DNA from: Lentisphaerae bacterium GWF2_38_69
GTDB taxonomy: Bacteria > Verrucomicrobiota > Lentisphaeria > Victivallales > GWF2-38-69
DNA: 64,000 bases
Direction of reading: 5' to 3'
Assembly (NCBI GenBank): GCA_001803205.1
Contig: MHBE01000059.1
Span: 124,001 to 188,000, forward strand
The translations under genes and the position numbers were made by a program. The notes below the pieces were generated by a model. It did no database searches, was not told where the DNA came from, and saw only the letters and a list, made by a program, of their open reading frames with translations. Positions 13,310 to 59,454 of this stretch are shown here, one piece after another. The number at the start of each line of letters is the position of its first letter. Position 1 is the first letter of the stretch.

Positions 13310-14746
<1,437 letters not shown>

Positions 14747-14756
14747 GGTAATAAAA

Positions 14757-15161: not shown

Positions 15162-15210
15162 AAGTATATGCCCAAAAAAGATGATCTATCTGTGAAATAG
15201 CAGGAAAAAT

Positions 15211-16518: not shown

Positions 16519-16533
16519 TCAGGAGGTATTATT

Positions 16534-16818: not shown

Positions 16819-16854
16819 TCTTGCTTTTCTACAATGAATATAGAGGTAGAATAA

Positions 16855-19193: not shown

Positions 19194-19203
19194 CGCTGCA
19201 AAT

Positions 19204-20088
19204 ATGAGTGATACACTGCAAAATATTAACCGTAAGATAGCCGGAGCCAGGAAGCTCGAATCAGTAGTTCGCACCATGAAAATCCTGGCTGCATCAAATA
19301 TAGGCCAATATGAAGCTGCGATACGCTCTCTTGGAGACTATTATCACTCTGTCAGGCTCGGACTTAATGTATGTCTTAGCCGCGGCAAATCATTACTTCC
19401 CTATTCGATAAAAAATACCGGAGAGGACACACCTGTGCTGGCTGTCGTTTATGGGTCAGATCAGGGCCTTGTAGGTCAGTACAATGATATTCTTGCAGAT
19501 TACAGCGCTAAGTCTCTGAATATTCTTCCGGGCAGGAAATATGTCTGGGCTGTAGGTGAGAGGATACGGGACAGGCTGCTGGATTTTGAAATACCGATCG
19601 CCGGGACATTTGATGTGCCTCCTTCCATCAAGTCAGTCTCTTCTTTGTGCTCAAAAATACTCTTTGAAACCCAAAGCAGTTTAAATAAGACCGATAAATA
19701 TCAATTCTATATTTTCAACAATTCTCCAGGAAACGGCGTTATATATGAGCCTGCACAGGCCAGCTTCCTTCCTCTGGATGAAAAGTGGGCTAAAAATATC
19801 ACAGACATTAAATGGGCAGGAAGAAATTTGCCTGAAATAGTCAAGGATAAAGAAAAAACGATTGAAGGTCTTATCCGCGAATATCTTTTTGTCTCGCTTT
19901 TCAAAGCATCTGCCGAGGCTCTCATGAGCGAGAATGCTGCGCGTTTGGCCGCTATGCAAAGGGCAGAAAAAAACATTCAGGAGGTTCTTGAGGACTTGAC
20001 CATGTCCTATAATAGACTACGTCAGGAATCAATCGATAATGAACTTTTCGATGTTATTTCCGGTTCTGAAGTTCTTATTAATTCATGA
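19204..20088 (+). CDS. atpG: N-ATPase gamma subunit
   Basis: Central rotor shaft of F1 (294 residues from ATG 19204). An open frame extends upstream to 19015 inside atpA, but the family N-terminus INRKIAGARKLESVVRTMK begins shortly after the chosen ATG, so the upstream part is not coding for this protein. The Rossmann-like middle (VVYGSDQGLVGQYND) and the C-terminal helix MQRAEKNIQEVLEDL are in place. The region has diverged more than alpha and beta, as is usual. It ends the ATPase operon. Confidence 0.92.
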   Translation: MSDTLQNINRKIAGARKLESVVRTMKILAASNIGQYEAAIRSLGDYYHSVRLGLNVCLSRGKSLLPYSIKNTGEDTPVLAVVYGSDQGLVGQYNDILADYSAKSLNILPGRKYVWAVGERIRDRLLDFEIPIAGTFDVPPSIKSVSSLCSKILFETQSSLNKTDKYQFYIFNNSPGNGVIYEPAQASFLPLDEKWAKNITDIKWAGRNLPEIVKDKEKTIEGLIREYLFVSLFKASAEALMSENAARLAAMQRAEKNIQEVLEDLTMSYNRLRQESIDNELFDVISGSEVLINS

Positions 20089-42413: not shown

Positions 42414-42630
42414 AAATTGCTCTTTCTATTTTATTCATTCTGCAACACTGTCACATTCATTTATCAGATAGTTCGTCCTTATTCCCTATCTGAACACATA
42501 GTATGCTAATTGTCGAATGGTTTACTTTCTAAAAACATAGCGAACATTTAATAATATTCGCATTGCCAGAATTGATCAATTGCTTAAACTATAGTCTGAA
42601 TCTTCAACAAAATAAAGGATGCCTGACTTT

Positions 42631-43395
42631 ATGAAAATCAGAAACAAGCTTTTAATATTTTTTATATCATCTATTACTTTCATTGCATGTCACGGAATTG
42701 CCCAGGAAGATACAATTGATGAAGACCCACATGATTCGATTTCTTCAGAAGACACCAGCTCGGATGATGAAGATTATTCAGAAGAAACAGTCAATAGAAT
42801 AGAATTCAGATATTCGCCATATGACAGAGATAATACCGATGTAAACGGGGTTAAATTCGGTGTGCCGATGTCCTCCGGGTTGGGAACAGTAGAAGGCGCT
42901 GAAATTTCTCTTGTTAGCAGTGATACTGCCAATATTAAAGGTTTTCAGGGTGCAATTCTTGTGAACATGACCAATTATATTGAAGGATTTCAGATGGGAA
43001 TAGCTAACATGATAAGACAGCATGGCACATCTGGGCAGCTTGGAATAATATGTTTTACTGCCAAACGAGTTGAAGGATTCCAGGCTAGCTTATTCAATTA
43101 CTCACGCGTAACGGAAGGTTTGCAGATCGGAGTAATTAACTATGCAGAAGATATTTCCTCATTCCAGCTTGGGATTCTCTGCTACAATAAAGAAGCCTGG
43201 ATTCCAATGCTTGTAGGAATTAACTTCGACCCTGCCATATTTGAAAGTTCATATGAAGAAGAGGACGAAACAGCTTCAGATCAGGAAGGCCATACAGTTG
43301 AAGAGGCAGAAACAGAAATAACCCCTGATACTACTTCAGATACGGCCAAAATGGAAGCAAAAGCAAAGCCATGGTACAATTTCCTGGGCTGGTAA
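42631..43395 (+). CDS. Exported surface-repeat protein (LA_2272-like)
   Basis: From ATG 42631 the 254-residue protein has a signal peptide or lipoprotein-like start (hydrophobic core, then FIAC, a possible lipobox), an acidic low-complexity stretch (about 27-55), and a repeat region. Short repeats of 20-23 residues follow the pattern GFQ-x-(G/A)-(I/L)-x-N: IKGFQGAILVN, IEGFQMGIAN, VEGFQASLFN, TEGLQIGVIN, ISSFQLGILC. This matches the surface-repeat family first named in Leptospira, predicted to form a beta-solenoid. The C-terminal 60 residues are again acidic and disordered. An ATG at 42619 sits directly against the ribosome site and is less likely. Role: envelope-associated, unknown. Confidence 0.8.
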   Translation: MKIRNKLLIFFISSITFIACHGIAQEDTIDEDPHDSISSEDTSSDDEDYSEETVNRIEFRYSPYDRDNTDVNGVKFGVPMSSGLGTVEGAEISLVSSDTANIKGFQGAILVNMTNYIEGFQMGIANMIRQHGTSGQLGIICFTAKRVEGFQASLFNYSRVTEGLQIGVINYAEDISSFQLGILCYNKEAWIPMLVGINFDPAIFESSYEEEDETASDQEGHTVEEAETEITPDTTSDTAKMEAKAKPWYNFLGW

Positions 43396-43485: not shown

Positions 43486-45474
43486 ATGTACTTTTTTCTA
43501 ATAGGAGTATGCTTGATTCTGGCAGGCGGATTTGCCTCAATTTTTGCCAGAGAGGAAAGAAAAGGGCTACTGTTTTTGCTATTTTTCAGCACAGGCTCTT
43601 TCCTTGCTCTTGTTATTTCTCTTGACAGCCTTTTCTTTTCAACATTTTACTGTTTTTCTTTTAATCTCCCTTTCCCTGCAGGACAAGTAAAACTTCTTTT
43701 TGATCCTCTTTCAGCGTTTTTTATTTCTATGATCGCCGTTATGGGATTCCTTGGCGTATTTTATGGCAACTCATATTTAAAGAGTTATCTCAATAAAGAT
43801 TATGGAATTACTTCTCACTATATTTTCCTTGGCGTATTTTTTTCAGCACTGATTTTACTGCCTGTAATCAGAAATGCTTTCTTCTTCCTAATAGCATGGG
43901 AATTCATGTCTCTTTCTTCCTTTTTCCTTGTTCTTTTTGACAGGAAGAAGAAGGAAGTTATCTCAGCAGCAATTAATTATCTTGTTACTATGCACATATC
44001 AGTTATTTTCCTGATTCTTGGTTTTTCTATTTTGTCATTCTTCTCGGGAAGTTACGATTTCAGTTCATTCCATAATATTTTTAATAATAACCGATTTTTA
44101 GCTGATGCTGTTTTTGTTATTCTGTTTATCGGATTCGGATTTAAAGCAGGTCTTGTGCCTTTACATTTCTGGCTTCCAAAAGCACACCCGGCAGCTCCCA
44201 GCCATATATCTGGACTGATGTCAGGACTTATGATAAAAATAGGCATTTACGGCATTCTCAGAATGCTTCTTATAATGGGCAATCTTCATATTGAAATAGC
44301 ATATTTTGTTCTTGCCATAGGAATAATAACAATGCTTTATGGCATACTAAATGCGTCAGTGCAAAATGACATTAAGAAACTTCTTGCCTATAGCAGTATT
44401 GAAAATATTGGAATAATAACATGCGGAATCGGAGTAGGATTACTTGGAATAGTTTATAACAACACACTTGTAGCATTTCTTGGTTTTTTCGGTGGCCTTT
44501 TACATATATTGAACCATTCGATTTTTAAGGAACTTCTTTTTTTCGGGACAGGATCTGTATATACCAAAGCCCATACTCTCAACATAGATGAACTAGGCTC
44601 ACTGACAAAAAGGATGCCTACGACTTCTATTTTGTTTTTTACAGGAGTTCTAGCAATTTCAGGGATGCCTCTTTTAAATGGATTTATAAGCGAATTTTTA
44701 ATATATATGGCTTTATTAAGCGGATTTAAAATTCATGATCTGAATATTGTAATTGTCTTTATGATTTCTCTTGCCTCAATGGCTCTTACCGGAACCATGG
44801 CTCTTATGTGCTTTACAAAACTTTTCGGAATAGCATTTCAGGGAATGCCAAGAAGCGAAAAAGTTAAAGAAGTAACTACTGATGTGGGAATGTGGATGCT
44901 TCTGCCGAAAATTGCGCTTGCTGCTTTTATTATAATCATAGGGCTTCTGCCGAATGTCATGCTTCTCGTATTTGAACCTCTGATTAAATCTTTTGTAAGG
45001 GCAGAAAATTTTTCTCAGGCTTCGTTTTTTACTTTTAACTTATTAAATATAGTTTCCTTAGTATCGATTATTTTTTTATCTTTAATCATTATTATTTTGG
45101 CAATACGCAGCTTTTTGCTTAAAAACAAGAAAATCAGCCTTTACAAAACATGGGACTGTGGCTATCAGGCAGGTAATCAGAAAATGCAGTATACTTCTTA
45201 CTCTTTTGTCGGGCCATTCGTAGAGATGTTCAGTAATCTCTTTACTAAAAAAGAAAACCTAAATTCTCCTAAAACTCTTTTCCCCTCGAAAGGACACTTC
45301 AGAGTCAATATAGATGACCTCCTGGAAGTTTATTTTACCGAACCCATCATAAACGGAATAAAAAAGATCCTTGCAAAATTCATTTGGATTCAAAACGGCA
45401 GTACGCAAATTTATATACTGTACGGATTCATTTTCCTGATTCTTGCAATTATCGGTTTATTTATTTATTCCTAA
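43486..45474 (+). CDS. hyfB: Module A: HyfB-like antiporter-type membrane subunit
   Basis: Large polytopic subunit (about 662 residues, 14-16 spans) related to HyfB/HycC and complex I NuoL. Typical segments are FLIAWEFMSLSSFFLVLF, FGFKAGLVPLHFWLPKAHPAAPSH with its conserved Lys and His, KKLLAYSSIENIGII and NHSIFKELLFFGTGS. These half-channels pump H+ or Na+ in related complexes. I choose the ATG at 43486; the open frame extends back to a TTG at 43426. It opens a run of twelve plus-strand genes (to 58023) with gaps under 12 bases. It is one of two HyfB-like genes here (see 50569). Confidence 0.9.
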   Translation: MYFFLIGVCLILAGGFASIFAREERKGLLFLLFFSTGSFLALVISLDSLFFSTFYCFSFNLPFPAGQVKLLFDPLSAFFISMIAVMGFLGVFYGNSYLKSYLNKDYGITSHYIFLGVFFSALILLPVIRNAFFFLIAWEFMSLSSFFLVLFDRKKKEVISAAINYLVTMHISVIFLILGFSILSFFSGSYDFSSFHNIFNNNRFLADAVFVILFIGFGFKAGLVPLHFWLPKAHPAAPSHISGLMSGLMIKIGIYGILRMLLIMGNLHIEIAYFVLAIGIITMLYGILNASVQNDIKKLLAYSSIENIGIITCGIGVGLLGIVYNNTLVAFLGFFGGLLHILNHSIFKELLFFGTGSVYTKAHTLNIDELGSLTKRMPTTSILFFTGVLAISGMPLLNGFISEFLIYMALLSGFKIHDLNIVIVFMISLASMALTGTMALMCFTKLFGIAFQGMPRSEKVKEVTTDVGMWMLLPKIALAAFIIIIGLLPNVMLLVFEPLIKSFVRAENFSQASFFTFNLLNIVSLVSIIFLSLIIIILAIRSFLLKNKKISLYKTWDCGYQAGNQKMQYTSYSFVGPFVEMFSNLFTKKENLNSPKTLFPSKGHFRVNIDDLLEVYFTEPIINGIKKILAKFIWIQNGSTQIYILYGFIFLILAIIGLFIYS

Positions 45475-45481
45475 GGATATT

Positions 45482-46396
45482 ATGCTTAATGTAATTCTAA
45501 ATATCGTTTTTATTATTTTGCTGCCTCTTGCTTTTATCGGAGTGATAAACAAGACAAAGGCTTTCTGGAGCGGAAGGAAAGGAGCCTCGATAATCCAGCC
45601 TTATTATGATGTTTTAAGATTGCTCAAAAAAGAGTTAGTTATAAGCAGGACTGCCTCTTTTCTATTCCAAATATACCCTTCAATAACTCTAGCAGCTGTT
45701 TTCATGGCAGCATTACTTATCCCGTTTGTGATGCATTCATCTGTGATAACAATAGAAGGAGGATTTATATTTTTTGCTTATATTATGGCTTTCGGAAAAT
45801 TTCTCTCGGTTGTTGGCGCTATGGATGTGGGAAGCAGTTTTGAGGGAATGGGAGCTAGCAGAGAAGCATCGTTTTCCACTCTTGTTGAAGTAGCATTTTT
45901 CATAATTATGGGTTCCATTGCAGCAATCACTTCTGACAATACTTTTGGAGCTATTACTCTTATATTGGAAAAAGCTGGGACTATTGGTTATTTAATTAAA
46001 ATTCTTTCTATTATAACATTCTTAATTCTGATTCTGATTGAAGGCTGCAGAATTCCTGTAGATGACCCCAATACTCATCTGGAATTAACTATGATCCATG
46101 AAGTAATGATTCTTGATAACTCCGGGATAGACCTTGCTATGCTGACTTATGCATCTGCACTTAAAATGCTCATATTTACTTCGCTTATAGCAAATATGAT
46201 AATCCCTGAAAGTTCGCCTTTATTATTGTTTCTCCTTCTCTACTTTTTAATTGTTTTTGCTGTAGCTTTTGGGATAGGAACAATTGAATCTGCCATAGCG
46301 AGGCTGAGAATGAGCAGAGTTTTTGATTTTATATGCTTCACAAGTTCACTTGGAATAATAATGCTTGCACTGATAGTTGTGAGCATGTTTTCTTAA
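45482..46396 (+). CDS. hyfC: Module A: HyfC-like membrane subunit (NuoH family)
   Basis: Membrane arm subunit related to HyfC/HycD and NuoH (304 residues, about eight spans), which joins the ion-pumping arm to the redox arm. The signature loop is CRIPVDDPNTHLELTMIHE, and GRKGASIIQPYYDVLRLLKKE near the N-terminus is also typical. The ATG at 45482 has AAGGA five bases upstream; longer in-frame starts would run back into hyfB. The acidic loop residues thought to couple redox change to pumping are intact. Confidence 0.92.
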   Translation: MLNVILNIVFIILLPLAFIGVINKTKAFWSGRKGASIIQPYYDVLRLLKKELVISRTASFLFQIYPSITLAAVFMAALLIPFVMHSSVITIEGGFIFFAYIMAFGKFLSVVGAMDVGSSFEGMGASREASFSTLVEVAFFIIMGSIAAITSDNTFGAITLILEKAGTIGYLIKILSIITFLILILIEGCRIPVDDPNTHLELTMIHEVMILDNSGIDLAMLTYASALKMLIFTSLIANMIIPESSPLLLFLLLYFLIVFAVAFGIGTIESAIARLRMSRVFDFICFTSSLGIIMLALIVVSMFS

Positions 46397-46409
46397 GGAT
46401 TATATAACC

Positions 46410-47060
46410 ATGGAAAATACACTTTCATTGCTCTTTTCTTTCACGATGCTCTACATGGCATCTTCAGGCAGATTGAGGCCATATATCAATATGCTGGTAA
46501 TTCAGGGAGTACTTCTCTTCCTTATTTTTAATGAGCTTTTTGATCACATCAATATCATTAATTATTGTTTTCTAGCTTTTGAAACTATTGTAATAAAAGC
46601 AATTGTAATACCTTTGTTTATCTGGAAAATAATCAAAAAAAGTGAAACCTATATAGATACTCAACCTAGTATTCCAAGATTTTACTCACTCATTGCATCA
46701 ACTATAATACTTTTTTTCGGGTTTATTTTTGCAATAATATCCAAACATCATTTGCCGGTAGACAATCCTTTGCCGTTTGGTATATCCATGTCTACCATCA
46801 TAATAAGCCTACTCTTTATAACATTGAGGAAGAAAATACTTACAGCGATAATTGGTTATATTATGATGGAAAATGGCATTTTCCTGCTCTCCCTTTCAAT
46901 CGAAAATGAAATGCCGATGATAGTGAATATGGGTGTGCTTCTTGACCTATTCATTGCGGTCTTCATACTAGGATTCCTTGTGAAGAGAATAAATAGATCA
47001 TTCAACGGTGACAGCCTGGATAAGCTAATTGAACTTAAGGACACAGAAAATGATAATTGA
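46410..47060 (+). CDS. hyfE: Module A: HyfE-like membrane subunit
   Basis: The 216-residue membrane protein has about seven spans and resembles HyfE (which combines MrpC/NuoK-like features). The conserved second-half helix reads GYIMMENGIFLLSLSI, with the buried Glu of the NuoK type, followed by GVLLDLFIAVFILGF. It lies 14 bases after hyfC and overlaps the next gene slightly. The sequence is less conserved than its neighbours, as is usual for this subunit. Confidence 0.88.
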   Translation: MENTLSLLFSFTMLYMASSGRLRPYINMLVIQGVLLFLIFNELFDHINIINYCFLAFETIVIKAIVIPLFIWKIIKKSETYIDTQPSIPRFYSLIASTIILFFGFIFAIISKHHLPVDNPLPFGISMSTIIISLLFITLRKKILTAIIGYIMMENGIFLLSLSIENEMPMIVNMGVLLDLFIAVFILGFLVKRINRSFNGDSLDKLIELKDTENDN

Positions 47061-48495
47061 ACTTATATTGTTTTTACCTCTCATAAGCTGTGTGGCTCTT
47101 ATTATTTTTAAGAAAATTACCTTTTCCAGAATTTTGGTATTAGTAAACGCCTTTGCTCTTTTGTTTTATTCACTATCATTATATTTAGCGTTTATAAATA
47201 ATTCCAAAATAACTTCCCTCCTTGGACAATACTTCAAAATTGACGCGCTGAATATTCTTTTCCTTCTTATTCTTTCAATAGTTTTCATGGCAGTTTCGAT
47301 ATATAGCTGCGGTTATGTTAAAAGCATAAACATGCATAATAAAAAAGCCACTTATTATTCAGTAGGACTTCTTTTATTTATATTTACCATGCTAGGAACA
47401 GTTTTGAGTTCAAATATTGCCCTTTCATGGGTTTTCCTTGAAGGTACGACTCTTACTAGCGCCTACTTAATTTATTTCGAAAAGACAAAACAATCCCTGG
47501 AAGCTACCTGGAAATATGTCTTTATATGCTCGATCGGGATATCTCTTGGTTTTGTCGGGATTATCCTGCTGGCACTTTCAACACATAATTCAAGCAGTAT
47601 GTTTTTTATAGATTTATACAGTCATTATAGCAATTTCAATACTTTATGGATGAACTTAGGTTTTGTCTTTTTTATTATTGGAATAGGAACAAAAGCAGGA
47701 CTTGCCCCAGTGCATTCGTGGCTGCCTGATGCTCACTCAGAAGCTCCTTCACCTGTTTCAGCATTACTTTCCGGAATGCTTTTAAATACGGCTCTGCTTC
47801 TTGTGCTCAGATACTATCATATTCTTAATCTTGCAGATTGTGCTTCTTATGGCAGACTTCTCTTTCTGATAATGGGAATTCTCTCAATTTTTGTTACTGC
47901 AGTATATGTTTTCACTATAAAAAATTACAAAAGGATGCTGGCATATTCCTCCGTAGAAAATATGGGAATTATCTCGATAGGCCTAGCTCTTGGAAAAACT
48001 GGAGTCTATGCAGCACTTATTCATCTGATTTTTCATTCTTTCGCAAAATCTTCTTTTTTTATGACTTCAGGAAACATCTATGTAAAATTTAAAACTAAAC
48101 GCATAGATAAAGTTTCCGATATGATTACCTGCGATCCTCCTACTGGCTGGCTTTGGATTCTGACATTTATTGTAATTTCAGGCATCCCCCCTTCTCCTTT
48201 ATTTATCAGTGAGTTTCTAATTATCAAAGAATTGCTGGCAGATAAACATTATATCATTCTAGTTCTCTTCATATTGCTTCTGACAATAATAATGTATGGT
48301 ATAGCCAGATGCGTAATTAATATGACATTTGGCAAAAGACCTAATAGCGATCACTTTGATTATATTGAACAAACTAAACTCCCATGGACGATGTATGCTC
48401 CGCAGTTTGTTTTGCTGGCAATCCTGGCTTTTTCAGGAATTTACCTTTGTCCATTTCTAATCGAAATGATTAAAACTGCAGCACAGCTTATCTGA
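47050..48495 (+). CDS. hyfF: Module A: HyfF-like antiporter-type membrane subunit
   Basis: Second antiporter-like subunit of the module (about 481 residues, about 13 spans), related to HyfF and NuoN/NuoL. Key segments are SWVFLEGTTLTSAYLIYF, GTKAGLAPVHSWLPDAHSEAPSP (Lys/His channel residues) and RMLAYSSVENMGII. ATG 47050 has AAGGA eight bases upstream and is preferred over an in-frame codon at 47029 inside hyfE. It adds a second potential ion channel to the complex. Confidence 0.9.
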   Translation: MIIELILFLPLISCVALIIFKKITFSRILVLVNAFALLFYSLSLYLAFINNSKITSLLGQYFKIDALNILFLLILSIVFMAVSIYSCGYVKSINMHNKKATYYSVGLLLFIFTMLGTVLSSNIALSWVFLEGTTLTSAYLIYFEKTKQSLEATWKYVFICSIGISLGFVGIILLALSTHNSSSMFFIDLYSHYSNFNTLWMNLGFVFFIIGIGTKAGLAPVHSWLPDAHSEAPSPVSALLSGMLLNTALLLVLRYYHILNLADCASYGRLLFLIMGILSIFVTAVYVFTIKNYKRMLAYSSVENMGIISIGLALGKTGVYAALIHLIFHSFAKSSFFMTSGNIYVKFKTKRIDKVSDMITCDPPTGWLWILTFIVISGIPPSPLFISEFLIIKELLADKHYIILVLFILLLTIIMYGIARCVINMTFGKRPNSDHFDYIEQTKLPWTMYAPQFVLLAILAFSGIYLCPFLIEMIKTAAQLI

Positions 48496-48504
48496 GGTAA
48501 ATAT

Positions 48505-50016
48505 ATGGAAGGTTTTACGAAAATCACGAATAACCAAATAGCAAAACTTGTCGAAATTCCTATTCTTTCCTATACCATACTCAGAGATAAAATTATTGCA
48601 GACTTCAAAAAAAGGCAGCTAAGGTGCATTGGCTTTTTTGGTGTTGAAGAGTCTATAGATACCGTAAGACTCTTTGTTCTCCTTTCGGAAGACAGCAAAC
48701 ATCTAATTCATATTTCATCTGCTCATCTTGATAAAAATTCATCATACGAATCAATAACTAAAGAGATTTCATCTTTTCATATGTATGAAAGAGATTTCTA
48801 TGAAGAATTTGGCATAAAGATAGATGGGCATCCCTGGCTCAAAGGAGTTAATTTCAGAACAGGAAGAGCAAATGAAGAATCCTGCATGGAAAATTATCCT
48901 TTCTTCAAAATGGATGGAGAGTCTCTTCATGAAGTTGCCGTAGGACCTATTCATGCTGGTGTAATTGAACCCGGGCACTTCAGATTCCTATGCAATGGCG
49001 AACAGGTTTATCATCTTGAAATTCAGCTTGGATATCAGCACAGAAATATTGAAAATTTATTTTTAGAAAGAAACCTAAAATTCATGCCTCATCTCGCTGA
49101 ATCCATAGCCGGTGACACTGTCATAGGACATAATCTTGCTTGCCTTAATCTCATAGAAGCTTTAACTCAGACAATTATACCTGATAGAGCCATACTTATA
49201 CGCACGATTGCTCTGGAGATGGAAAGAGCAGCCATTCATCTGGCAGATCTAAGCGCTCTTGCAAACGATATAGGATATCTTATGGGCAGTTCAGTCTTCG
49301 GAGTAACAAGAACGATCATAATTAACACTTTACTGCTTATCTGCGGAAATAGATTCGGAAGAGGGCTGATGCGCCCCGGCGGATGCGTTTTCGATATACA
49401 CAAAGCGCTTACTGAAAAAATCAGAACAAACTTATCTAAAGTAAAAGAAGATACTATCAGAATGGCTGAAACGATGTTCAAAAGCCATACTGTCGCATCT
49501 AGATTTGAAAATACAGGGATATTAACAAAAGAAGAAGCTATCAGCATTGGCGCAGTTGGGATGACTGCCAGAGCTTCTTCATATAATGTAGACGCAAGGC
49601 ATTCACATCCTTTTGGTTTTTATAAAAAGCTTCTTCTTGGGGAAAAGACTCACAAAAAAGGAGACGTTCACTCAAGAGCATATCTTAGATATGAAGAAAT
49701 TATTGAATCAATCGAAATTGTATTTACTCTCTTGAATGAACTCGAAGACAAAAAGACTGGAACTCAGATAATGACTAAAATTAAAGATAAATTCCAACCT
49801 TCTTCACTTGTTGTTTCCATTGTAGAAGGCTGGAGAGGCGAAATAATACACTGCGCAATTACAAACAATGAAGGAGATCTGTTAAAATATAAAATAAAAG
49901 ATCCCTCCCTCACTAACTGGTTTGCTCTTGCTTTAGCAGTCCGTAATAATGGCATCTCCGATTTCCCACTCTGTAATAAGAGTTTTAACCTCTCATACTG
50001 TGGAAATGATTTATAA
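48505..50016 (+). CDS. hyfG: Module A: NuoC-NuoD/HyfG-like large subunit lacking NiFe ligands
   Basis: The 503-residue protein fuses a NuoC-like N-terminal domain (about 1-130, FHMYERDFYEEFGI) to a 49-kDa/hydrogenase large-subunit domain starting at VGPIHAGVIEPGHFRF (147-162). In NiFe hydrogenases a CxxC pair follows ER in the first motif; here residues 199-210 read ESIAGDTVIGHN with no Cys. The second CxxC near the C-terminus is also missing; the end reads LCNKSFNLSYCGNDL, two isolated Cys instead of a DPCxxC motif. So no NiFe site can form in the normal way. It matches Ehr-type complexes or a structural paralogue. Confidence 0.9.
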   Translation: MEGFTKITNNQIAKLVEIPILSYTILRDKIIADFKKRQLRCIGFFGVEESIDTVRLFVLLSEDSKHLIHISSAHLDKNSSYESITKEISSFHMYERDFYEEFGIKIDGHPWLKGVNFRTGRANEESCMENYPFFKMDGESLHEVAVGPIHAGVIEPGHFRFLCNGEQVYHLEIQLGYQHRNIENLFLERNLKFMPHLAESIAGDTVIGHNLACLNLIEALTQTIIPDRAILIRTIALEMERAAIHLADLSALANDIGYLMGSSVFGVTRTIIINTLLLICGNRFGRGLMRPGGCVFDIHKALTEKIRTNLSKVKEDTIRMAETMFKSHTVASRFENTGILTKEEAISIGAVGMTARASSYNVDARHSHPFGFYKKLLLGEKTHKKGDVHSRAYLRYEEIIESIEIVFTLLNELEDKKTGTQIMTKIKDKFQPSSLVVSIVEGWRGEIIHCAITNNEGDLLKYKIKDPSLTNWFALALAVRNNGISDFPLCNKSFNLSYCGNDL

Positions 50017-50027
50017 CGGAAATATTT

Positions 50028-50564
50028 ATGTTTAAATTCATATCTAAAATATTATCAACTGAAAAAACAGTTATACAACTTCATGATTTAATTAATGATG
50101 ATGAACTTTCAGAAACGGGTAAAAAAGTAGAACAGAAGATAAAACGGCTCTTTAAATCCTCTCTGGCAATTCGAGCCGTGGATACCGGTTCTACAAATGC
50201 CTGCGAACAGGAACTTACTGCTTTGGGAAACTCTTATTATGATATTGAACGATTTGGTATTCGTTTTGTGGCCTCTCCGAGACACGCGGACATGTTAATG
50301 GTTACTGGACCAGTCTCAAGAAATATGAAAGATGCGCTACTAAAGACATATGAAGCCACACCTGATCCAAAAATTGTCGTTGCAGTCGGTGATGACGCAA
50401 TAGATGGTGGAATTTTTAAAGGTTCCTATGGGGTTCTTGACGGAGTACACAATGTCATACCTGTGGATTTTAATATTCCCGGAGATCCTCCGTCTCCTAA
50501 AACAATACTTTCACATATACTTCAAATATTAGAAATGATAGATTCATCTGGCAAAAATAAATAA
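50028..50564 (+). CDS. hyfI: Module A: degenerate HyfI/NuoB-like small subunit
   Basis: The 178-residue protein is clearly NuoB/HyfI-like (ERFGIRFVASPRHADMLMVTGPVSRNM), but the cysteines for the proximal [4Fe-4S] cluster are mostly lost. The usual GSCNGCE reads GSTNACE (T56, only C59 left). The usual GACAxxGG reads GDDAIDGG (D123). The usual IPGCPP reads IPGDPP (D153). C59 is the only Cys in the protein. The reading frame is intact and flanked by normal spacing, so this looks like selected change, not decay. It has no ferredoxin domain. The module thus appears unable to transfer electrons. Confidence 0.9.
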   Translation: MFKFISKILSTEKTVIQLHDLINDDELSETGKKVEQKIKRLFKSSLAIRAVDTGSTNACEQELTALGNSYYDIERFGIRFVASPRHADMLMVTGPVSRNMKDALLKTYEATPDPKIVVAVGDDAIDGGIFKGSYGVLDGVHNVIPVDFNIPGDPPSPKTILSHILQILEMIDSSGKNK

Positions 50565-50568
50565 TCTT

Positions 50569-52623
50569 ATGAATATCATGTTTAATACCTTTACCTCATC
50601 AAATATTTTCATAGGAGCAATTGTTCTATGGGCAATTGGAGCCGCTGGGTCTTTATTTCTCAGAAAAAATGACAATTTATCAAATACCTTTGGCAATTGT
50701 TTTGCTGTTTTAGGCTCTATTTTAGGGTTAATCTCTTCTTCCCTGGTTTTTATTGGAGGTTTTGAATTTTCATTCAATATCGTTTCTTCTCTTCCGCTTT
50801 TGTCATTATCATTCAAAGTGGATAAATTAGCCGCATTTTTTATCTTCACTATTTCTCTTATAGCTCTGCTGTCTTCTCTTTATGCTTTGGAATATATAAA
50901 GCATTATTACACAAAATATAATATCGGAACTTTGAACTTCTTTTATAATATCTTTATTCTGGGAATGGTTTTGGTCGTCAGCGCAAATAACGCACTCTTC
51001 TTTCTGATTGTCTGGGAGATAATGTCCCTTGCTTCATATTTCTTAGTGATATATGAAAACAAAGAGAAAGATAACCTGAAGGCAGGTTCTCTCTACTTCA
51101 TTATGACCCACATAGGAACTGCGTTTATTACTTTGGCATTTCTACTCTTATATAGTGCGACAGGATCTTTGGATTTTTCCATCATAAAAGAAAATATCGG
51201 AAATGTTACTCCACTTGTCAAAAATATTGTTTTTATTCTTTCCATAGTTGGATTTGGAACAAAAGCAGGAATTATTCCGCTTCATATCTGGCTGCCTGGC
51301 GCCCATCCGGCAGCACCCTCACATGTTTCAGCATTAATGTCCGGAGTAATGATTAAGACTGGTATTTATATGTTTATCAGAATTTTTATGGATATTATAA
51401 CTACCGCGCCAGTCTGGTGGGGAACTGTAATTTTGATTCTCGGTGCAATATCTTCGCTCCTGGGAGTTTTATATGCTCTAACTGAACACGATATTAAAAG
51501 GCTTTTGGCTTACCACAGCATAGAAAATATTGGCATTATAATGATGGGAATCGGCAGTTCCTTGATCTTTTGGTCTTTAGATATGAAACCTTATGCAATA
51601 CTTGGGCTAGTTGCCGCTCTCTTTCACACTATCAACCATGCAATATTCAAAGCATTGCTGTTCCTTGGAGCAGGTTCTGTTATCTCAAAAATGCATACCA
51701 GAAATATGGAAGAATATGGGGGTTTGATAAAGTATATGCCGCAAACAGCTTTTTTCTTTCTCATTGGATCCATGGCTATTTCTGCTTTTCCCCCTTTCAA
51801 TGGCTTTTTTAGTGAATGGATAACTTTTCAAGCTCTTTTTAAAGGCATTATGATTTCTGATACTTCTGTGAGGTGGGCTTTTTTAACAGCCGCAGGTTCA
51901 TTAGCATTTACTGGAGGATTGGCAGCAATGTGTTTTGTTAAAGTATTTGGATCAACTTTTCTTGCCCGCCCCAGAAGCAAAGAAGTATCCCATGCTAAAG
52001 AAGCTGGCATAAAAATTCGATTTAGTATGTTAATTCTCTCAACTCTTACATTGTTACTCGGGCTTGCTTCGGGCACTGTTACTGACATATTATCAGGAAT
52101 TGTAAATAACTTGGGAATTTTTAATAAAGTTAAACCAGTATTGCTTGCAACTGCTGTCAATGTTCGATTAGAAGATAATTTTTCCGCTGTATCAATACCA
52201 CTTATACTCATAATCTTAATAGTTGTAACTGTGCTAATTTTTATTCTTGTATCTGCTTTTACTCTAAATACAAAAATACAAATAGGAGATACCTGGGATT
52301 GCGGTTCTACCCTAACCTCGAGGATGGAGATTACTGCAACAGCATTTGCCAACTCTATTATTTCTATTTTTCATGGAGTTCTCAAGCCGACTAAACAAAT
52401 TACTATTGAATACCGCGATGCAAGTATGCGCTATTTTCCCAAAACCGAAACGGTCAGACTCGGAACCAAAGATATTTACCGGGGTTATTTTTACCTGCCT
52501 GTCCAACTTCTTACCACCAAAGTCTCAGGATATGTGAAAAAGATTCAAAGCGGTAATATAAACACTTACATTCTTTATATATTAATAATACTAATTGCTA
52601 TGCTCTTATTGGCATCTATTTAA
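50569..52623 (+). CDS. hyfB: Module B: HyfB-like antiporter-type membrane subunit
   Basis: Second HyfB-type subunit (684 residues), paralogous to the one at 43486. Conserved segments are FFLIVWEIMSLASYFLVIYE, GFGTKAGIIPLHIWLPGAHPAAPSH, RLLAYHSIENIGIIMMGI and NHAIFKALLFLGAGSV. It begins 4 bases after module A ends, so both modules are probably one transcript. The shared segment pattern suggests an ancient duplication of the whole cluster, since the two copies differ at many positions. Confidence 0.9.
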   Translation: MNIMFNTFTSSNIFIGAIVLWAIGAAGSLFLRKNDNLSNTFGNCFAVLGSILGLISSSLVFIGGFEFSFNIVSSLPLLSLSFKVDKLAAFFIFTISLIALLSSLYALEYIKHYYTKYNIGTLNFFYNIFILGMVLVVSANNALFFLIVWEIMSLASYFLVIYENKEKDNLKAGSLYFIMTHIGTAFITLAFLLLYSATGSLDFSIIKENIGNVTPLVKNIVFILSIVGFGTKAGIIPLHIWLPGAHPAAPSHVSALMSGVMIKTGIYMFIRIFMDIITTAPVWWGTVILILGAISSLLGVLYALTEHDIKRLLAYHSIENIGIIMMGIGSSLIFWSLDMKPYAILGLVAALFHTINHAIFKALLFLGAGSVISKMHTRNMEEYGGLIKYMPQTAFFFLIGSMAISAFPPFNGFFSEWITFQALFKGIMISDTSVRWAFLTAAGSLAFTGGLAAMCFVKVFGSTFLARPRSKEVSHAKEAGIKIRFSMLILSTLTLLLGLASGTVTDILSGIVNNLGIFNKVKPVLLATAVNVRLEDNFSAVSIPLILIILIVVTVLIFILVSAFTLNTKIQIGDTWDCGSTLTSRMEITATAFANSIISIFHGVLKPTKQITIEYRDASMRYFPKTETVRLGTKDIYRGYFYLPVQLLTTKVSGYVKKIQSGNINTYILYILIILIAMLLLASI

Positions 52624-52628
52624 ATATT

Positions 52629-53555
52629 ATGTCTGTTCTTCTTTGGTTAATTCAATTAATTCTTATTCCTCTTCTTTCACCGCTCTGCATTGGAATAGTA
52701 AGAAAGATAAAAGCTAAATTTCAAAATAGAACCGGCGCAAGCGTGCTTCAGCCTTATAGAGATTTATGGAAACTATTTCAAAAAGATGAAGTAATAAGTA
52801 AAGATGCTTCATGGATTTTTAAATTTGCTCCGTATTTCATTTATTCAATCACTGTTATTTTAGGGGCAAGCATCCCCATATTCAGCACAATTTTTTATCC
52901 TAATCTGCTTAGTGACATATTAGTTGTAATTTATCTGATAGCTCTAGGAACATTCTTTCTGGCTTTGGCAGGAATGGATTCAGGTAGCGCATTCGGCGGA
53001 TTTGGTTCAAGTCGAGAAATGACAGTAGCAGCTTTAACAGAAGGCGGATTAATGTTTTCTATTCTAACTTTGGCATTTGCCGCTCATTCAACAAATTTGT
53101 TTGTAATAGCAAAAAATATTTCTTCGTTATCCTTTTTCTCTTTTGCTCCGATAATTCTTGCTTTTGGAGCCTTCATTATCACCATGCTCTCAGAAACTTC
53201 CCGATTCCCGTTTGATAATCCCGCTACACATCTCGAACTTACTATGATTCACGAGGCTATGATCTTGGAATATTCCGGAAAAAGACTGGCATTGATTGAA
53301 TGGGCGGCGGCAAATAAATTTCTTATCTTCTTGAGCTTGGGAGCAAATTTATTCTTCCCATGGGGAATGTCTTTAACAAATTGTTTGTCAGATACTTTGC
53401 TAGCATTATTTTTATTTGCAGTAAAAATATTAATTCTATGTGTTTTCGTTGCTGTTTTGGAATCCAGCATTGCCAAATTCAGATTTTTTAGATTGCCTGA
53501 TTTATTATTCACTTCATTTATTTTAAGTATAATTTCAATTAGCCTGATTATATAA
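52629..53555 (+). CDS. hyfC: Module B: HyfC-like membrane subunit (NuoH family)
   Basis: NuoH-type subunit of 308 residues, about eight spans. The coupling loop is RFPFDNPATHLELTMIHEA, the counterpart of RIPVDDPNTHLELTMIHEV in module A. The N-terminal segment NRTGASVLQPYRDLWKLFQKDE is also characteristic. It starts 5 bases after module B hyfB. Motifs are intact. Confidence 0.92.
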   Translation: MSVLLWLIQLILIPLLSPLCIGIVRKIKAKFQNRTGASVLQPYRDLWKLFQKDEVISKDASWIFKFAPYFIYSITVILGASIPIFSTIFYPNLLSDILVVIYLIALGTFFLALAGMDSGSAFGGFGSSREMTVAALTEGGLMFSILTLAFAAHSTNLFVIAKNISSLSFFSFAPIILAFGAFIITMLSETSRFPFDNPATHLELTMIHEAMILEYSGKRLALIEWAAANKFLIFLSLGANLFFPWGMSLTNCLSDTLLALFLFAVKILILCVFVAVLESSIAKFRFFRLPDLLFTSFILSIISISLII

Positions 53556-53560
53556 AAACT

Positions 53561-54220
53561 ATGAATCATCTATCCTCACATTTTTTATTTTTCCTTGAAA
53601 CAATTCTTTTTACCTCTGTGGTTTTAATGCATCTTACCAAAAAAAACTTCACAGTCATTCTTCTTTATACTGTACAATCATTAGTCGTATCCGGAGTCTT
53701 ATTTTATTCATCCATACAAGAAGCTTCATTCCTGCTATTTATCGTTGCTGCAATGACCTTTATTGTAAAAGTAGGAATAGCTCCATATTTCTTTTTCAAG
53801 CTTATTAAGCTCCATCGCCTGCAGTTTTCAGTCAGCACATATTTAAATAGCCCTATGACATTTATAGTTATCGCACTGCTTACTGCGTTTACCTATTCAC
53901 ATTATTTCAGAAAGCTAACCATACTTTCTCCGTCTAATGGAGATGCTCTGCTGCTCTCCATGTCTATGATTTTTATAGCTATATTTCTGACAGTTAATCG
54001 CAAAGGTGCTTTGTCCCAAATGGTTGGTATTCTTTCTTTTGAGAATGCAATCGTTTCTTTTGCATATATTACCGGACTAGAAACAAATGCAGGAGCTGAA
54101 GTTGGCATATTGTTTATCATTTTTATCTGGATAATAATAGCAACTGTTTTTGCATCAATGATATATACTCATTTTGGCACTCTTAATGTTAGTCAGATGA
54201 AGAATTTAAAAGAAGAATAA
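53561..54220 (+). CDS. hyfE: Module B: HyfE-like membrane subunit
   Basis: The 219-residue protein has about seven spans. It carries the NuoK-type buried Glu in MVGILSFENAIVSFAYI. It occupies the same slot as the module A HyfE-like gene and has similar length, although overall similarity by eye is low, as expected for this fast-changing subunit. A 5-base gap precedes it. Confidence 0.87.
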   Translation: MNHLSSHFLFFLETILFTSVVLMHLTKKNFTVILLYTVQSLVVSGVLFYSSIQEASFLLFIVAAMTFIVKVGIAPYFFFKLIKLHRLQFSVSTYLNSPMTFIVIALLTAFTYSHYFRKLTILSPSNGDALLLSMSMIFIAIFLTVNRKGALSQMVGILSFENAIVSFAYITGLETNAGAEVGILFIIFIWIIIATVFASMIYTHFGTLNVSQMKNLKEE

Positions 54221-54224
54221 TACA

Positions 54225-55673
54225 ATGGCTTTAATACTAATCATTATACTACCTGTTATAGCAGCACTTCTATCATATATTTTTAGAAAAAGCTTATTGT
54301 GGCTAAGTTGGATTGCGGTTATTGTCTCTATCCTTGAGCTCTCGACAGCACTTACGATAGTTATATCTATCCTAAATGGCGGATCGATAATAGTTCATTC
54401 TACTTATTATTTTGCTATAGATCCTTTGGGAATTATTCTATTGATGATATTAACACTCGTAGGAACCATGGCCTCAGTCTATTCTGTTGGCTATATAAAG
54501 CAAGAAGTAGAAAATAAAGTTATAGTTTTATACAAAGCTCACCAGTACTTCATTCTTCTTCATTTGTTCATTTTTGCTATGTTTTTCGCTATTATGACAA
54601 CAAGTCCAATCCTCATGTGGATTGCAATTGAAGCCACGACTTTATCAACAGCATTCCTTGTCAGTTTTTATAATAAACCTTCAGCGATAGAAGCTGCCTG
54701 GAAATATTTGATAATAAATTCCATTGGAGTGCTTCTTGGATTTTTTGGAACTCTATTATTCCTTTATCCAACATTGCATGCAAATCACAGAGGATTTGTA
54801 AATTGGACATTACTTCTAAATAACGCATCTGCTTTTGATCCATTCATAGCTAAAATAGCCTTCGTTATTGTCCTGATTGGCTATGGCACAAAAGTCGGAC
54901 TTGTTCCAATGCATCCCTGGCTTCCTGATGCCCATAGTAAAGCACCTGCTCCCATCAGCAGTTTGCTTTCAGGAGTTTTGCTTAATGTCGCATTTTTTGC
55001 CGTGCTCAAGTTCAAAGCTGTTACAGATATTGCAATCGGTTCGTCCTTTTCACAAATGCTTATGATATTTTTTGGCATTCTGTCAATAACTGTAGCGGCT
55101 TTTATTATTTTTGTTCAAAAAAACTATAAAAGGCTTCTGGCATACAGTAGCGTTGAACATATGGGGATTATTGCGCTAGGCTTTGGATTTGGCGGAATAG
55201 GGTCATTCGCGGCCTTGCTTCACATGATATATCATTCCTTAGCCAAATCTGCTCTTTTTCTTCTGTCGGGTAATGTCTTTATCCGATATAACACTACCAA
55301 AATATCTGAAGTAAAAGGAATGATTAAAGTTCTACCCATTACCAGTGTATTATTTTTCATTGGCTTTTTAGCGATAACAGGAATTCCACCTTTTGGAATT
55401 TTCATAACAGAATTCACAATACTATCAGCAGGAATCAGCTCCCATCCGGTCATTACCTGTATTGCTTTATTCTCATTAGTGCTCGTATTTACCGCTATCA
55501 TTAAACATATCGTTAAAATGATCTTCGGAAAATCTGATGAAAGCACATCAAAATGCGAAATTAGTTTTTTGACTGTTTTCCCGCCGTTAATTTTGATCGC
55601 TATACTGATAGTGTTAAGCTTTTTTATTCCACAAAATTTACAATTTTTATTGCACGCAGCTGCTGCAAAATAA
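54225..55673 (+). CDS. hyfF: Module B: HyfF-like antiporter-type membrane subunit
   Basis: The 482-residue polytopic subunit has the channel segments MWIAIEATTLSTAFLVSFY, GTKVGLVPMHPWLPDAHSKAPAP and RLLAYSSVEHMGIIALGFG. It is paralogous to 47050. Its Lys and His residues of the half-channels are retained. With hyfB it gives module B two potential ion-translocating subunits; with module A the whole cluster has four. Confidence 0.9.
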   Translation: MALILIIILPVIAALLSYIFRKSLLWLSWIAVIVSILELSTALTIVISILNGGSIIVHSTYYFAIDPLGIILLMILTLVGTMASVYSVGYIKQEVENKVIVLYKAHQYFILLHLFIFAMFFAIMTTSPILMWIAIEATTLSTAFLVSFYNKPSAIEAAWKYLIINSIGVLLGFFGTLLFLYPTLHANHRGFVNWTLLLNNASAFDPFIAKIAFVIVLIGYGTKVGLVPMHPWLPDAHSKAPAPISSLLSGVLLNVAFFAVLKFKAVTDIAIGSSFSQMLMIFFGILSITVAAFIIFVQKNYKRLLAYSSVEHMGIIALGFGFGGIGSFAALLHMIYHSLAKSALFLLSGNVFIRYNTTKISEVKGMIKVLPITSVLFFIGFLAITGIPPFGIFITEFTILSAGISSHPVITCIALFSLVLVFTAIIKHIVKMIFGKSDESTSKCEISFLTVFPPLILIAILIVLSFFIPQNLQFLLHAAAAK

Positions 55674-55680
55674 CATCACC

Positions 55681-57252
55681 ATGAAATTAAAAATGATTAA
55701 AAAATACATTTCAGACGAGTATAAAATAAAGAAAGAAGGCAATGTACTATCTTATGCTGTTCCAGTTGCCGATATAGTACAAGTCTGCAACGATTTGTAC
55801 TTTAAACATAAACTTCAGCTTAAACTAATAACGGCTCTTGATGACAGGGAGAACACCGGGCAATTCAAAATTTTTTATGTCTTTGGAATCTCTCCTGAAA
55901 ATATATTTTTACTTCCATATATATCTCTGAAAGATGAAGAGGAATTTCCTTCTATTACTAAACTCATTCATGAAGCTTCATCTTATGAAAGAAAAATTTA
56001 TACTTTTTTCGGTTTACGCCCGAAAGACCATCCTCATATGACTCAAATCTTGCTTCATGAAAACTGGCCGGATAAAGTTTTTCCTCTGCGAAAAGACTTT
56101 AAATACCAGACAAGACCAGATTATGTTGATGGAGTATATGAATCTCAGAAAGTTGAAGGAGAAGGAGTATACGAAATCCCTGTTGGGCCGGTTCATGCGG
56201 GTATCATTGAGCCTGGGCATTTTCGTTTTAGCGTTGCCGGAGAAAAAATATTATTGTTGAAACCCAGGTTAGGATATAAACACAAAGGCATAGAAAAACT
56301 TTTCGAAGTTTTGCCAATAAGTGATAAAGTTCGACTATCCGAAAGAGTCTCTGGTGATACTTCTTTTACTCATTCCATGGCTTTTTGCCAATCTATTGAG
56401 ATGCTTGCTGATATCGATGTTACTGAAAGAGTAAAATATTTAAGGGTTATTTTTTCTGAACTGGAAAGACTTGCAAATCACCTCAATGATATCGGATTTA
56501 TAATGCTTGACACAGGCTATAGTTTCGGCGGCAGCAATTGCGCTCGTTTACGCGAAGTAATTATGCAATGGAATGAACGCCTTACTAATAGCCGTTTTTT
56601 AAGGGGAGTAAATATGATCGGAGGAATTCAAAAAGATATCCCGATTAAGTTGTGCCACGAATTATTGTTGACACTGAAAAAAATAAAACATGACTTTAAC
56701 GAAATTATAGCAGTTTCTCAGAGCAGCAGTTCTGTTATTAACCGTCTTTCCGGCACTGGAAATGTAGCTAAACAAGTTGCAGTAGATCATGGACTTATTG
56801 GCATATCAGGCAGATCTATAGGGATTAAACATGACGCCCGTATCGAATACCCTTATGCTGCGTATAATAAATTAAATTTTGACATGGCTTTAGAAGAGAA
56901 AGGAGATGTACTTGCCCGATGGTCTGTTCGCATCAAAGAAGTTTCTACCTCTATTTCTATTTTAGAGCAGGCTATTCTTGAAATGCCTTCTGATAACAAC
57001 ATCTTGCATAACAAAAACAACTTTGCTCTGCGCTCCAATAGTTACAGCATAGGTATAGCAGAAGGATGGAGAGGAGATATTGTATATTTTGTAGCTACTG
57101 ATTCTAAAGGAGAGATAGCTAGAGTAGATGTACGCGACCCATCTTTTATAAATTGGACTATTTTAGAACATTCTGTTAATGAAGATATAATACCGGATTT
57201 TCCCCTTATAAATAAAAGCTTCAATTTGTCTTACTCAGGCAATGACTTATAG
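55681..57252 (+). CDS. hyfG: Module B: NuoC-NuoD/HyfG-like large subunit lacking NiFe ligands
   Basis: The 523-residue protein has a NuoC-like domain (about 1-150) and a NuoD/HyfG-like domain starting at VGPVHAGIIEPGHFRF (168-183). The first hydrogenase motif reads ERVSGDTSFTH (221-231), with no Cys where CGIC would occur. The C-terminal end, FPLINKSFNLSYSGNDL, also lacks the DPCxxC pair. So it cannot bind NiFe in the normal way. It is the closest relative of the module A large subunit, with the same C-terminal pattern NKSFNLSY-GNDL. In Ehr-type complexes such a subunit is thought to act in an unknown redox or quinone-like reaction. Confidence 0.9.
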   Translation: MKLKMIKKYISDEYKIKKEGNVLSYAVPVADIVQVCNDLYFKHKLQLKLITALDDRENTGQFKIFYVFGISPENIFLLPYISLKDEEEFPSITKLIHEASSYERKIYTFFGLRPKDHPHMTQILLHENWPDKVFPLRKDFKYQTRPDYVDGVYESQKVEGEGVYEIPVGPVHAGIIEPGHFRFSVAGEKILLLKPRLGYKHKGIEKLFEVLPISDKVRLSERVSGDTSFTHSMAFCQSIEMLADIDVTERVKYLRVIFSELERLANHLNDIGFIMLDTGYSFGGSNCARLREVIMQWNERLTNSRFLRGVNMIGGIQKDIPIKLCHELLLTLKKIKHDFNEIIAVSQSSSSVINRLSGTGNVAKQVAVDHGLIGISGRSIGIKHDARIEYPYAAYNKLNFDMALEEKGDVLARWSVRIKEVSTSISILEQAILEMPSDNNILHNKNNFALRSNSYSIGIAEGWRGDIVYFVATDSKGEIARVDVRDPSFINWTILEHSVNEDIIPDFPLINKSFNLSYSGNDL

Positions 57253-57264
57253 GATAATTTGATT

Positions 57265-58023
57265 ATGGCCAATACTCTTAAAATAAAATATTACAACAAG
57301 AAACAATTCATCCCTGATATTAAAAAAGCCTTGCCTGACAAAATGCACAGGGGTTTGCCAATACTGGATACCGAAAAGTGCAGCCAATGCGGCAATTGCA
57401 AAACAATCTGCCCTACAGCAGCAATAGGACAAAACCCTATCAGCATCGACTTGGGCAAATGCATTTTCTGCGGTGACTGTGAAAGAATCTGCAAAACAGG
57501 AGCGATTATCTTCAGTAATTTTAATAAGCTTTCTTCAGCTTCAAGAGAGGGTTTAGTCATAACAGAAAAAACAACATCTGAAGCATTCTTGCCTCCAGCT
57601 TTTAAAGTAAGGCAGGAAATTAAACATATCTTTAAAAATTCATTAAAACTCCGTCAGGTATCAGCCGGAGGATGCAATGGCTGCGAATTTGAACTCAATG
57701 CCTGCTCTAATGCTAACTTTGACATGGGAAGGTTTGGAATTGAATTTGTAGCATCGCCGAGACATGCCGACGGATTGGTTATAACAGGACCAATAACCAG
57801 AAATATGGCACCTGCTCTTGAGGACGCATATCATAGCACACCTAATCCCAAAGTAGTTATTCTTACTGGAGCTTGCGCTATAAGCGGAGGGCTTTTTAAG
57901 GATTCTACAGCCATTGACAGGTCATTTCTTCAAAAATATAAAATAGACCTTTACATTCCAGGCTGCCCTATTCACCCTCTAACCTTTATCAACGCAATCC
58001 TCTGCTTTATAGGCAGATATTGA
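57265..58023 (+). CDS. Module B: fused ferredoxin (HyfH-like) and HyfI/NuoB-like small subunit
   Basis: The 252-residue protein (ATG 57265, AGGAT nine bases upstream) joins two domains. Residues 36-82 carry two [4Fe-4S] ferredoxin motifs, CSQCGNCKTICP and CIFCGDCERICK. From about 130 a NuoB/HyfI domain follows with all four cluster cysteines: C137 and C140 (GGCNGCE), C204 (TGACAISGG) and C234 (IPGCPIHP). So up to three clusters could pass electrons to the large subunit. In E. coli these are separate hyfH and hyfI genes. This is the functional counterpart of the degenerate module A gene at 50028 and ends the cluster. Confidence 0.92.
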   Translation: MANTLKIKYYNKKQFIPDIKKALPDKMHRGLPILDTEKCSQCGNCKTICPTAAIGQNPISIDLGKCIFCGDCERICKTGAIIFSNFNKLSSASREGLVITEKTTSEAFLPPAFKVRQEIKHIFKNSLKLRQVSAGGCNGCEFELNACSNANFDMGRFGIEFVASPRHADGLVITGPITRNMAPALEDAYHSTPNPKVVILTGACAISGGLFKDSTAIDRSFLQKYKIDLYIPGCPIHPLTFINAILCFIGRY

Positions 58024-58941: not shown

Positions 58942-59454
58942 CTATAAAGGATATAATCCTTCTCTGTGTTCCATGCCCAGTTTTACATATTCATCAGCAT
59001 TTTCAAGAATATGTTTTCTACTGTCTTCATCTAAAGATTTTACTTGTCTGGCAGGAATTCCTACAGCTAGGGTGCTTGCTTCAATAATAGCATTCTCTTT
59101 AACCACAGCGCCAGCTCCTATTATAGATCCCTTTCTTATTACAGCTCCACTTAGGATTATTGCTCCCATGCCAATAAGACATTCATCTTCAATAACACAT
59201 CCATGAATTATACAGCCGTGCCCAACTGTAACATTGTTCCCGATAATAGTTGATTTATTATGATCATTATGAATGACGCTGCAGTCCTGAATATTTGTTC
59301 TTTCTCCAATAACTATCTTTGTATTCGGTATATCGCTTCTTATAACGCAGTTATACCAAACGGTACTGCTTCTGCCGATTGTTACATCTCCCATTATTTT
59401 AGCTCCTTCGGCAATAAAAGTGCTTTTATCTATCTGAGGTATGTTTTTTTGCAT
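58942..59454 (-). CDS. Gamma-class carbonic anhydrase-family protein
   Basis: The 170-residue left-handed beta-helix protein has hexapeptide repeats (TIGRSSTVWYNCVIRSD, then IIGNNVTVGHGCIIHGCVI). Three metal-ligand histidines are visible: one in SVIHNDH and two in VGHGCIIHG. This is the gamma-CA/YrdA type, some of which hydrate CO2 and others of which have no known activity. It lies 32 bases before the nucleosidase gene in the same direction. Metal ligands are complete; activity is not certain. Confidence 0.9.
   Translation of the reverse strand: MQKNIPQIDKSTFIAEGAKIMGDVTIGRSSTVWYNCVIRSDIPNTKIVIGERTNIQDCSVIHNDHNKSTIIGNNVTVGHGCIIHGCVIEDECLIGMGAIILSGAVIRKGSIIGAGAVVKENAIIEASTLAVGIPARQVKSLDEDSRKHILENADEYVKLGMEHREGLYPL

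Follow-up and report, generated by a model that had tools for sequence, protein, structure and literature searches.

Gene content and layout of the cluster

The stretch of DNA analysed here (the window, 64,000 nucleotides of contig MHBE01000059.1 from Lentisphaerae bacterium GWF2_38_69) carries twelve plus-strand open reading frames (ORFs) at 43486-58023, which encode two sets of homologues of the hydrogenase-4 subunits HyfB, HyfC, HyfE, HyfF, HyfG and HyfI. The first-pass annotation had recognized two HyfB-C-E-F-G-I runs, and the ORF list and the family matches agree with it. Gene order and phylogeny show that the genes form two units, one of which is nested in the other. Unit 1 consists of genes 1-5 and 12, namely HyfB-C-E-F-G (43486-50016) and a long HyfI (57265-58023); unit 2 consists of genes 6-11, namely a short HyfI and the second HyfB-C-E-F-G set (50028-57252), and is located between HyfG and HyfI of unit 1. 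The features are as follows, with identities to G001, the closest genome, which belongs to the same family as the window genome (G000):

42619..43395, plus strand: uncharacterized gene upstream of unit 1, with a counterpart in the corresponding position of G001 (51% identity)
43486..45474, plus strand: unit 1 HyfB-like antiporter-type subunit (PF00361), 52% identical to the G001 orthologue (L036)
45482..46396, plus strand: unit 1 HyfC, NuoH-like (PF00146), 65% identical to G001 unit 1
46410..47060, plus strand: unit 1 HyfE, NuoK-like, 64% identical to G001
47050..48495, plus strand: unit 1 HyfF, antiporter-type subunit, 55% identical to G001
48505..50016, plus strand: unit 1 HyfG, NuoCD-like large subunit without Ni-Fe ligands
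50028..50564, plus strand: unit 2 short HyfI, NuoB-like, 178 amino acids, without ferredoxin domain; N2 positions T56, C59, D123 and D153
50193..50486, plus strand: span of the codons for the residues that occupy the former N2 [4Fe-4S] ligand sites in the short HyfI, as placed by alignment with HycG and other HyfI proteins
50193-50195, 50202-50204, 50394-50396 and 50484-50486, plus strand: the individual codons of T56, C59, D123 and D153
50569..52623, plus strand: unit 2 HyfB, antiporter-type subunit, with residues invariant in its clade
52629..53555, plus strand: unit 2 HyfC, NuoH-like, with residues invariant in its clade
53561..54220, plus strand: unit 2 HyfE, K70 and E161 invariant
54225..55673, plus strand: unit 2 HyfF, antiporter-type subunit, E136, K223, H230, H333 and H337 invariant
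55681..57252, plus strand: unit 2 HyfG, Ni-Fe ligand motifs replaced (RVSGDTSFTH, FNLSYSGND)
57265..58023, plus strand: unit 1 long HyfI, ferredoxin domain with eight cysteines and intact N2 site (CCCC)

Pfam and NCBIfam assign the twelve products to the expected families, although both HyfE proteins match only weakly (Oxidored_q2 and the hydrogenase-4 membrane-subunit model). A NuoEFG NADH module, as in respiratory complex I, is not present among the twelve genes. The subunits of the first and the second run are true paralogues, which share 36% (HyfB), 36% (HyfC), 39% (HyfF), 32% (HyfG), 40% (HyfI) and 23% (HyfE) identity. The short gaps reported before are confirmed and range from an 11-base overlap to 13 bases. 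The view that two paralogous Ehr-like sets lie in one probable operon is upheld. Promoter-like sites were not more frequent in a scan than in shuffled sequences, and terminator-like sites were found both within and between genes. A second module had been placed 4 bases behind the end of the first one. This spacing exists between the short HyfI and the second HyfB; the module boundary drawn there does not, as the short HyfI belongs to the second unit by phylogeny.

Two nested units of separate origin

Sixty relatives were searched with the first HyfG and the surroundings of the loci were then inspected. Most of the relatives inspected carry one HyfB-C-E-F-G set of the type of the first run (A-type) and, behind it, a long HyfI that includes a ferredoxin domain. 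In G001, the two units lie apart, and each forms a complete operon on a contig of its own. Contig C74 carries a HyfBCEFG set that is 52-65% identical to the first five genes of the window, and a long HyfI that shares 61% identity with the twelfth. The six-gene operon on contig C70 contains a short HyfI with 80% identity to the sixth gene and a HyfB-C-E-F-G set with 70-84% identity to the second run (B-type), and its flanking genes are unrelated. Since the gene at 42619-43395 is kept at the same place in G001, the unit 1 loci of the two genomes are regarded as orthologous.

Phylogenetic trees group the first run and the long HyfI of the window with unit 1 of G001, and the second run and the short HyfI with unit 2 of G001, inside a clade of Patescibacteria. 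The contig arrangement in G001 and the trees thus agree that the units are nested and stem from different sources, rather than being tandem modules as the first-pass annotation had assumed. Tandem duplication of one module was rejected because the basal split of the HyfG tree, which is fully supported, separates A- from B-type sequences. The single A-type sets of other relatives suggest that unit 2 was inserted in the window lineage, not removed from the locus in G001.

Unit 1 resembles an ordinary Ehr complex

Ehr complexes, whose function is described as open in PMC6349859 and PMC10284858, are already known; according to the latter, they contain group 4-like subunits with antiporter-type members and a large subunit without Ni-Fe ligands. 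By its sequence, unit 1 is an ordinary Ehr complex and fits this description fully: it comprises HyfB-C-E-F-G-I homologues, and the L1 CxxC and L2 CxxC ligands of group 4 [NiFe] hydrogenases are missing from its HyfG, as they are from that of unit 2. The long HyfI, which both tree and synteny place in unit 1, has an intact iron-sulfur path that includes the ferredoxin-type motif CCCCCCCC and the CCCC ligands of cluster N2. Electrons would pass via two ferredoxin-type clusters to N2, next to a HyfG without a [NiFe] site. N2 and the ferredoxin clusters are found in the long HyfI alone, in line with the earlier proposal of only one electron path. The window genome also encodes a [NiFe] hydrogenase of the group 4 type in which both ligand motifs are present (L053 9235-14316), and a second [NiFe] enzyme (G000:C44:26551-27006), so other loci take care of hydrogen metabolism.

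Unit 2 has lost its redox centres and is kept by selection

Unit 2 likewise consists of HyfB-C-E-F-G-I homologues with a large subunit in which, in an alignment with HycE, the Ni-Fe ligand cysteines are replaced. Apart from one chance match, Ni-Fe ligand motifs were found in no HyfG of the 89-row set. In contrast to the Ehr complexes described in PMC10284858, unit 2 has neither N2 nor a ferredoxin domain, which leaves it without an electron path. At the N2 positions, the short HyfI of the window has T-C-D-D instead of CCCC, i.e. three of the four cysteines are replaced, whereas all four are kept in each of the 32 comparison HyfI sequences. Within the unit 2 clade, the positions are occupied by T/D/S, C/A/E, D/G and D/N, and some of its members show S/T-E-G-D or T-E-G-N and thus no cysteine at the site. 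An alternative cysteine set was considered and rejected, as no cysteine is common to all unit 2 HyfG or HyfI proteins. The patescibacterium G591 (L253) shows the HyfI-first order with an intact CCCC site and is likely an intermediate. In a subclade of Patescibacteria (L254-L256, L258), HyfC and HyfE are apparently fused, and the old N2 site is free of cysteine.

The ion path was retained. Residues invariant in 17-18 unit 2 sets include E150, K232, H239, K263, E319, H353, H357, K361 and E416 of HyfB and R129, E130, E138, E189, R192, D196, H201, E203 and E278 of HyfC, besides those listed above for HyfE and HyfF. The lysine, glutamate and histidine residues of the antiporter-type, NuoH-like and NuoK-like subunits are thus conserved at the sequence level; in complex I and Mrp, residues of this kind take part in ion translocation. 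Ratios of non-synonymous to synonymous substitution rates (dN/dS) of 0.07-0.18 across all six genes (0.10-0.11 for the short HyfI) indicate that unit 2 is under purifying selection, and full-length ORFs are present in about 20 genomes. The structure of the short HyfI is predicted with confidence (predicted local distance difference test score (pLDDT) of 89.7) and still matches NuoB-type structures. The missing redox ligands might suggest that unit 2 is degenerating and about to be lost, but this is highly improbable given a dN/dS of about 0.1, the intact ORFs and the invariant ion-path residues, and pseudogene decay was rejected.

Distribution of unit 2 and its link to ATP synthase

Relatives of unit 2 are mostly found in Patescibacteria. 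A scan of named genomes identified relatives with 60-64% identity in one Magasanikbacteria genome, two 0.9-Mb genomes and one Bacteroidetes bin, and B-type HyfG proteins occur in 8/86 and 12/286 small genomes of the order and the class around two such relatives. Within the phylum of the window genome, matches above 45% identity were restricted to G000 and G001 among 388 genomes. Since unit 2 of the window falls inside a clade made up mostly of Patescibacteria, lateral acquisition from a Patescibacteria-type lineage appears to be the simplest reading. Four genomes (G393-G396) carry unit 2 without any A-type HyfG, and in 12 of the 14 Patescibacteria carriers searched, the short HyfI is the sole PF01058 (NuoB-family) protein. 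Many of these genomes are metagenome bins, and single cases such as the Bacteroidetes bin are possibly misbinned.

In the patescibacterium G647 (L250), unit 2 is located inside an F-type ATP synthase operon, in the order atpF-atpH-atpA-atpG, 17 bp, unit 2, 31 bp, atpD (Pfam identifies atpA and atpD, whereas the assignment of atpF, atpH and atpG relies on their position and sequence). At three further loci (L211, L213, L214), unit 2 follows atpD-atpC on the same strand at a distance of 115-187 bp, and at a fourth (L212) it also follows these genes, with insertion-element genes in between. This neighbourhood ties unit 2 to membrane energetics. No neighbour gene was common to all stand-alone unit 2 loci beyond the ATP synthase genes, which are found at 5 of 15.

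The window has an atp operon of its own at 13328-20088, which encodes beta, epsilon, two small membrane proteins, a, c, a b/delta-like subunit, alpha and gamma and resembles the N-ATPase type; its c subunit (16534-16818) has an ES...Y motif, which suggests Na+. A Na+-type ATP synthase in the Patescibacteria carriers was considered as a clue to the transported ion, but their c subunits look H+-type by motif and gave no clear clue.

Cluster N2 was lost repeatedly in Ehr complexes

Replacement of the N2 ligands is not restricted to unit 2. In the Bacteroidales-like order of G393 (L230-L247, L260), the ligands are D-C/A-D-N in 17/17 scored A-type HyfI proteins, most of which have also lost the cysteines of ferredoxin cluster I (positions 1, 2, 3 and 8) and kept positions 4-7. 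The Opitutus-like genome G130 has S-E-E-W at this site, and its locus (L087 3-15103) is an independent nested double Ehr cluster, in which BCEF (A) is followed by BCEFGI (B, N2 intact) and GI (A, S-E-E-W). The HyfG tree requires at least four N2 changes. A single loss within the B clade is compatible with the data (approximately unbiased (AU) test, p = 0.37), and the safe statement is therefore that the sequences support at least three independent losses, not four. Two other double clusters were observed: two A-type BCEFGI sets in G299, 4.9 kb apart on one strand and with iron-sulfur ligands intact in both (L097 270-19757), and, in a Sulfuritalea bin, two B-type Ehr sets in convergent orientation, whose short HyfI proteins have an intact N2 site (L162 4643-21405).

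Proposed role of unit 2 and alternative explanations

We consider it probable, at about 0.62, that the window encodes two separate Ehr-type complexes in one nested operon and that unit 2 is a separate, redox-free ion-translocating complex of lateral origin. Devoid of a redox centre, such a complex could not be driven by electron transfer. It would translocate ions independently of redox reactions through its two antiporter-type subunits and the NuoH- and NuoK-like subunits, driven by gradients that the ATP synthase makes or uses, and the dead HyfG/HyfI pair might serve as a structural or gating cap. Several observations weigh against this proposal: the association with ATP synthase is limited to a third of the loci, mostly from one subclade; unit 2 of the window does not adjoin the ATP synthase genes, as the atp operon ends 23 kb upstream; the nested pair of the Opitutus-like genome has exactly one N2-less HyfI, a possible hint of pairing; and a different metal could be bound by the acidic residues that have appeared at the N2 site.

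The last point leads to the alternative that unit 2 is still a redox enzyme, whose T/D-C-D-D site holds a different metal or an unusual cluster. In its favour, the acidic residues that replace the ligands are conserved, and the order of G393 acquired D-C-D-N independently; however, part of the unit 2 clade has a cysteine-free site, and neither a second cluster nor a ferredoxin domain is available to pass electrons on, which makes this explanation unlikely.

Less likely still is the model first envisaged, in which the units join in one double-sized or mixed complex that has four antiporter-type subunits but only one route for electrons, via the long HyfI. The organization of the twelve genes in one probable operon would fit it, and the best argument in its favour is the nested pair of the Opitutus-like genome. 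However, both units come with a complete set of subunits, the Patescibacteria relatives are already N2-less, unit 2 exists without unit 1 in four genomes, and the units are apart in G001; a double-sized complex is neither needed nor supported, although the units may pair in the window genome. Trees and co-occurrence had been named beforehand as the means to refute such a complex, and their outcome, different sources and units apart in other genomes, largely speaks against it.

It is also improbable that unit 2 links ion flow to the hydration of carbon dioxide or the uptake of bicarbonate, as does DabAB, whose DabB subunit is of the NuoL type. At L109, a putative carbonic anhydrase (Pro_CA_2, E = 2.7e-22) is encoded 88 bp downstream of unit 2, but this is the only Pfam-supported match among the 15 loci, and the window operon contains no such gene and no carbonic-anhydrase-like partner of the DabA kind. 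Outside the operon, two genes downstream on the opposite strand, a hexapeptide-repeat protein resembling gamma-carbonic anhydrases is encoded (58942-59454, minus strand).

Relation to known systems and implications

HyfB, HyfG and HyfI are clear homologues of the subunits of E. coli hydrogenase-4 and formate hydrogenlyase (7Z0S); unlike hydrogenase-4, both units lack the [NiFe] ligands, and unit 2 also lacks N2. HyfB is furthermore homologous to MrpA/MrpD-type subunits of Mrp-type Na+/H+ antiporters, and redox-free ion exchange is possible; in contrast to Mrp, unit 2 retains subunits of the NuoH, NuoCD and NuoB types, and genes resembling MrpE/F/G are missing from it. Ehr large subunits of the candidate phyla radiation (CPR) were described as one clade without metal-binding cysteines (PMC7304191, accessible part), which is very probably the same clade as unit 2. 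That part covers the large subunit and does not mention the N2 loss in HyfI, the HyfI-first order, the linkage to ATP synthase or the transfer to other phyla. A search of open-access full texts turned up no description of the N2 loss, of the linkage to ATP synthase or of the nested arrangement. While patescibacterial Ehr complexes without Ni-Fe ligands are thus already known, these three features appear to be new.

For the family as a whole, we lean slightly towards the view that one branch of the complex I family is purely ion-driven and redox-free and works together with ATP synthase in Patescibacteria, and that Ehr complexes lost N2 on several occasions, with acidic residues convergently taking the place of the ligands. 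The current picture of complex I and its relatives is that of pumps driven by redox reactions, and the coupling of electron transfer to ion transport is a long-standing question. A natural relative in which the ion path is complete and the scaffold of the electron module persists, yet electrons have no route, would allow a direct test of this question. Hyf-like clusters annotated as hydrogenase or complex I may, as a warning, carry no electrons at all. Patescibacteria mostly lack respiratory chains, and unit 2 would be a concrete candidate for energy coupling in these bacteria.
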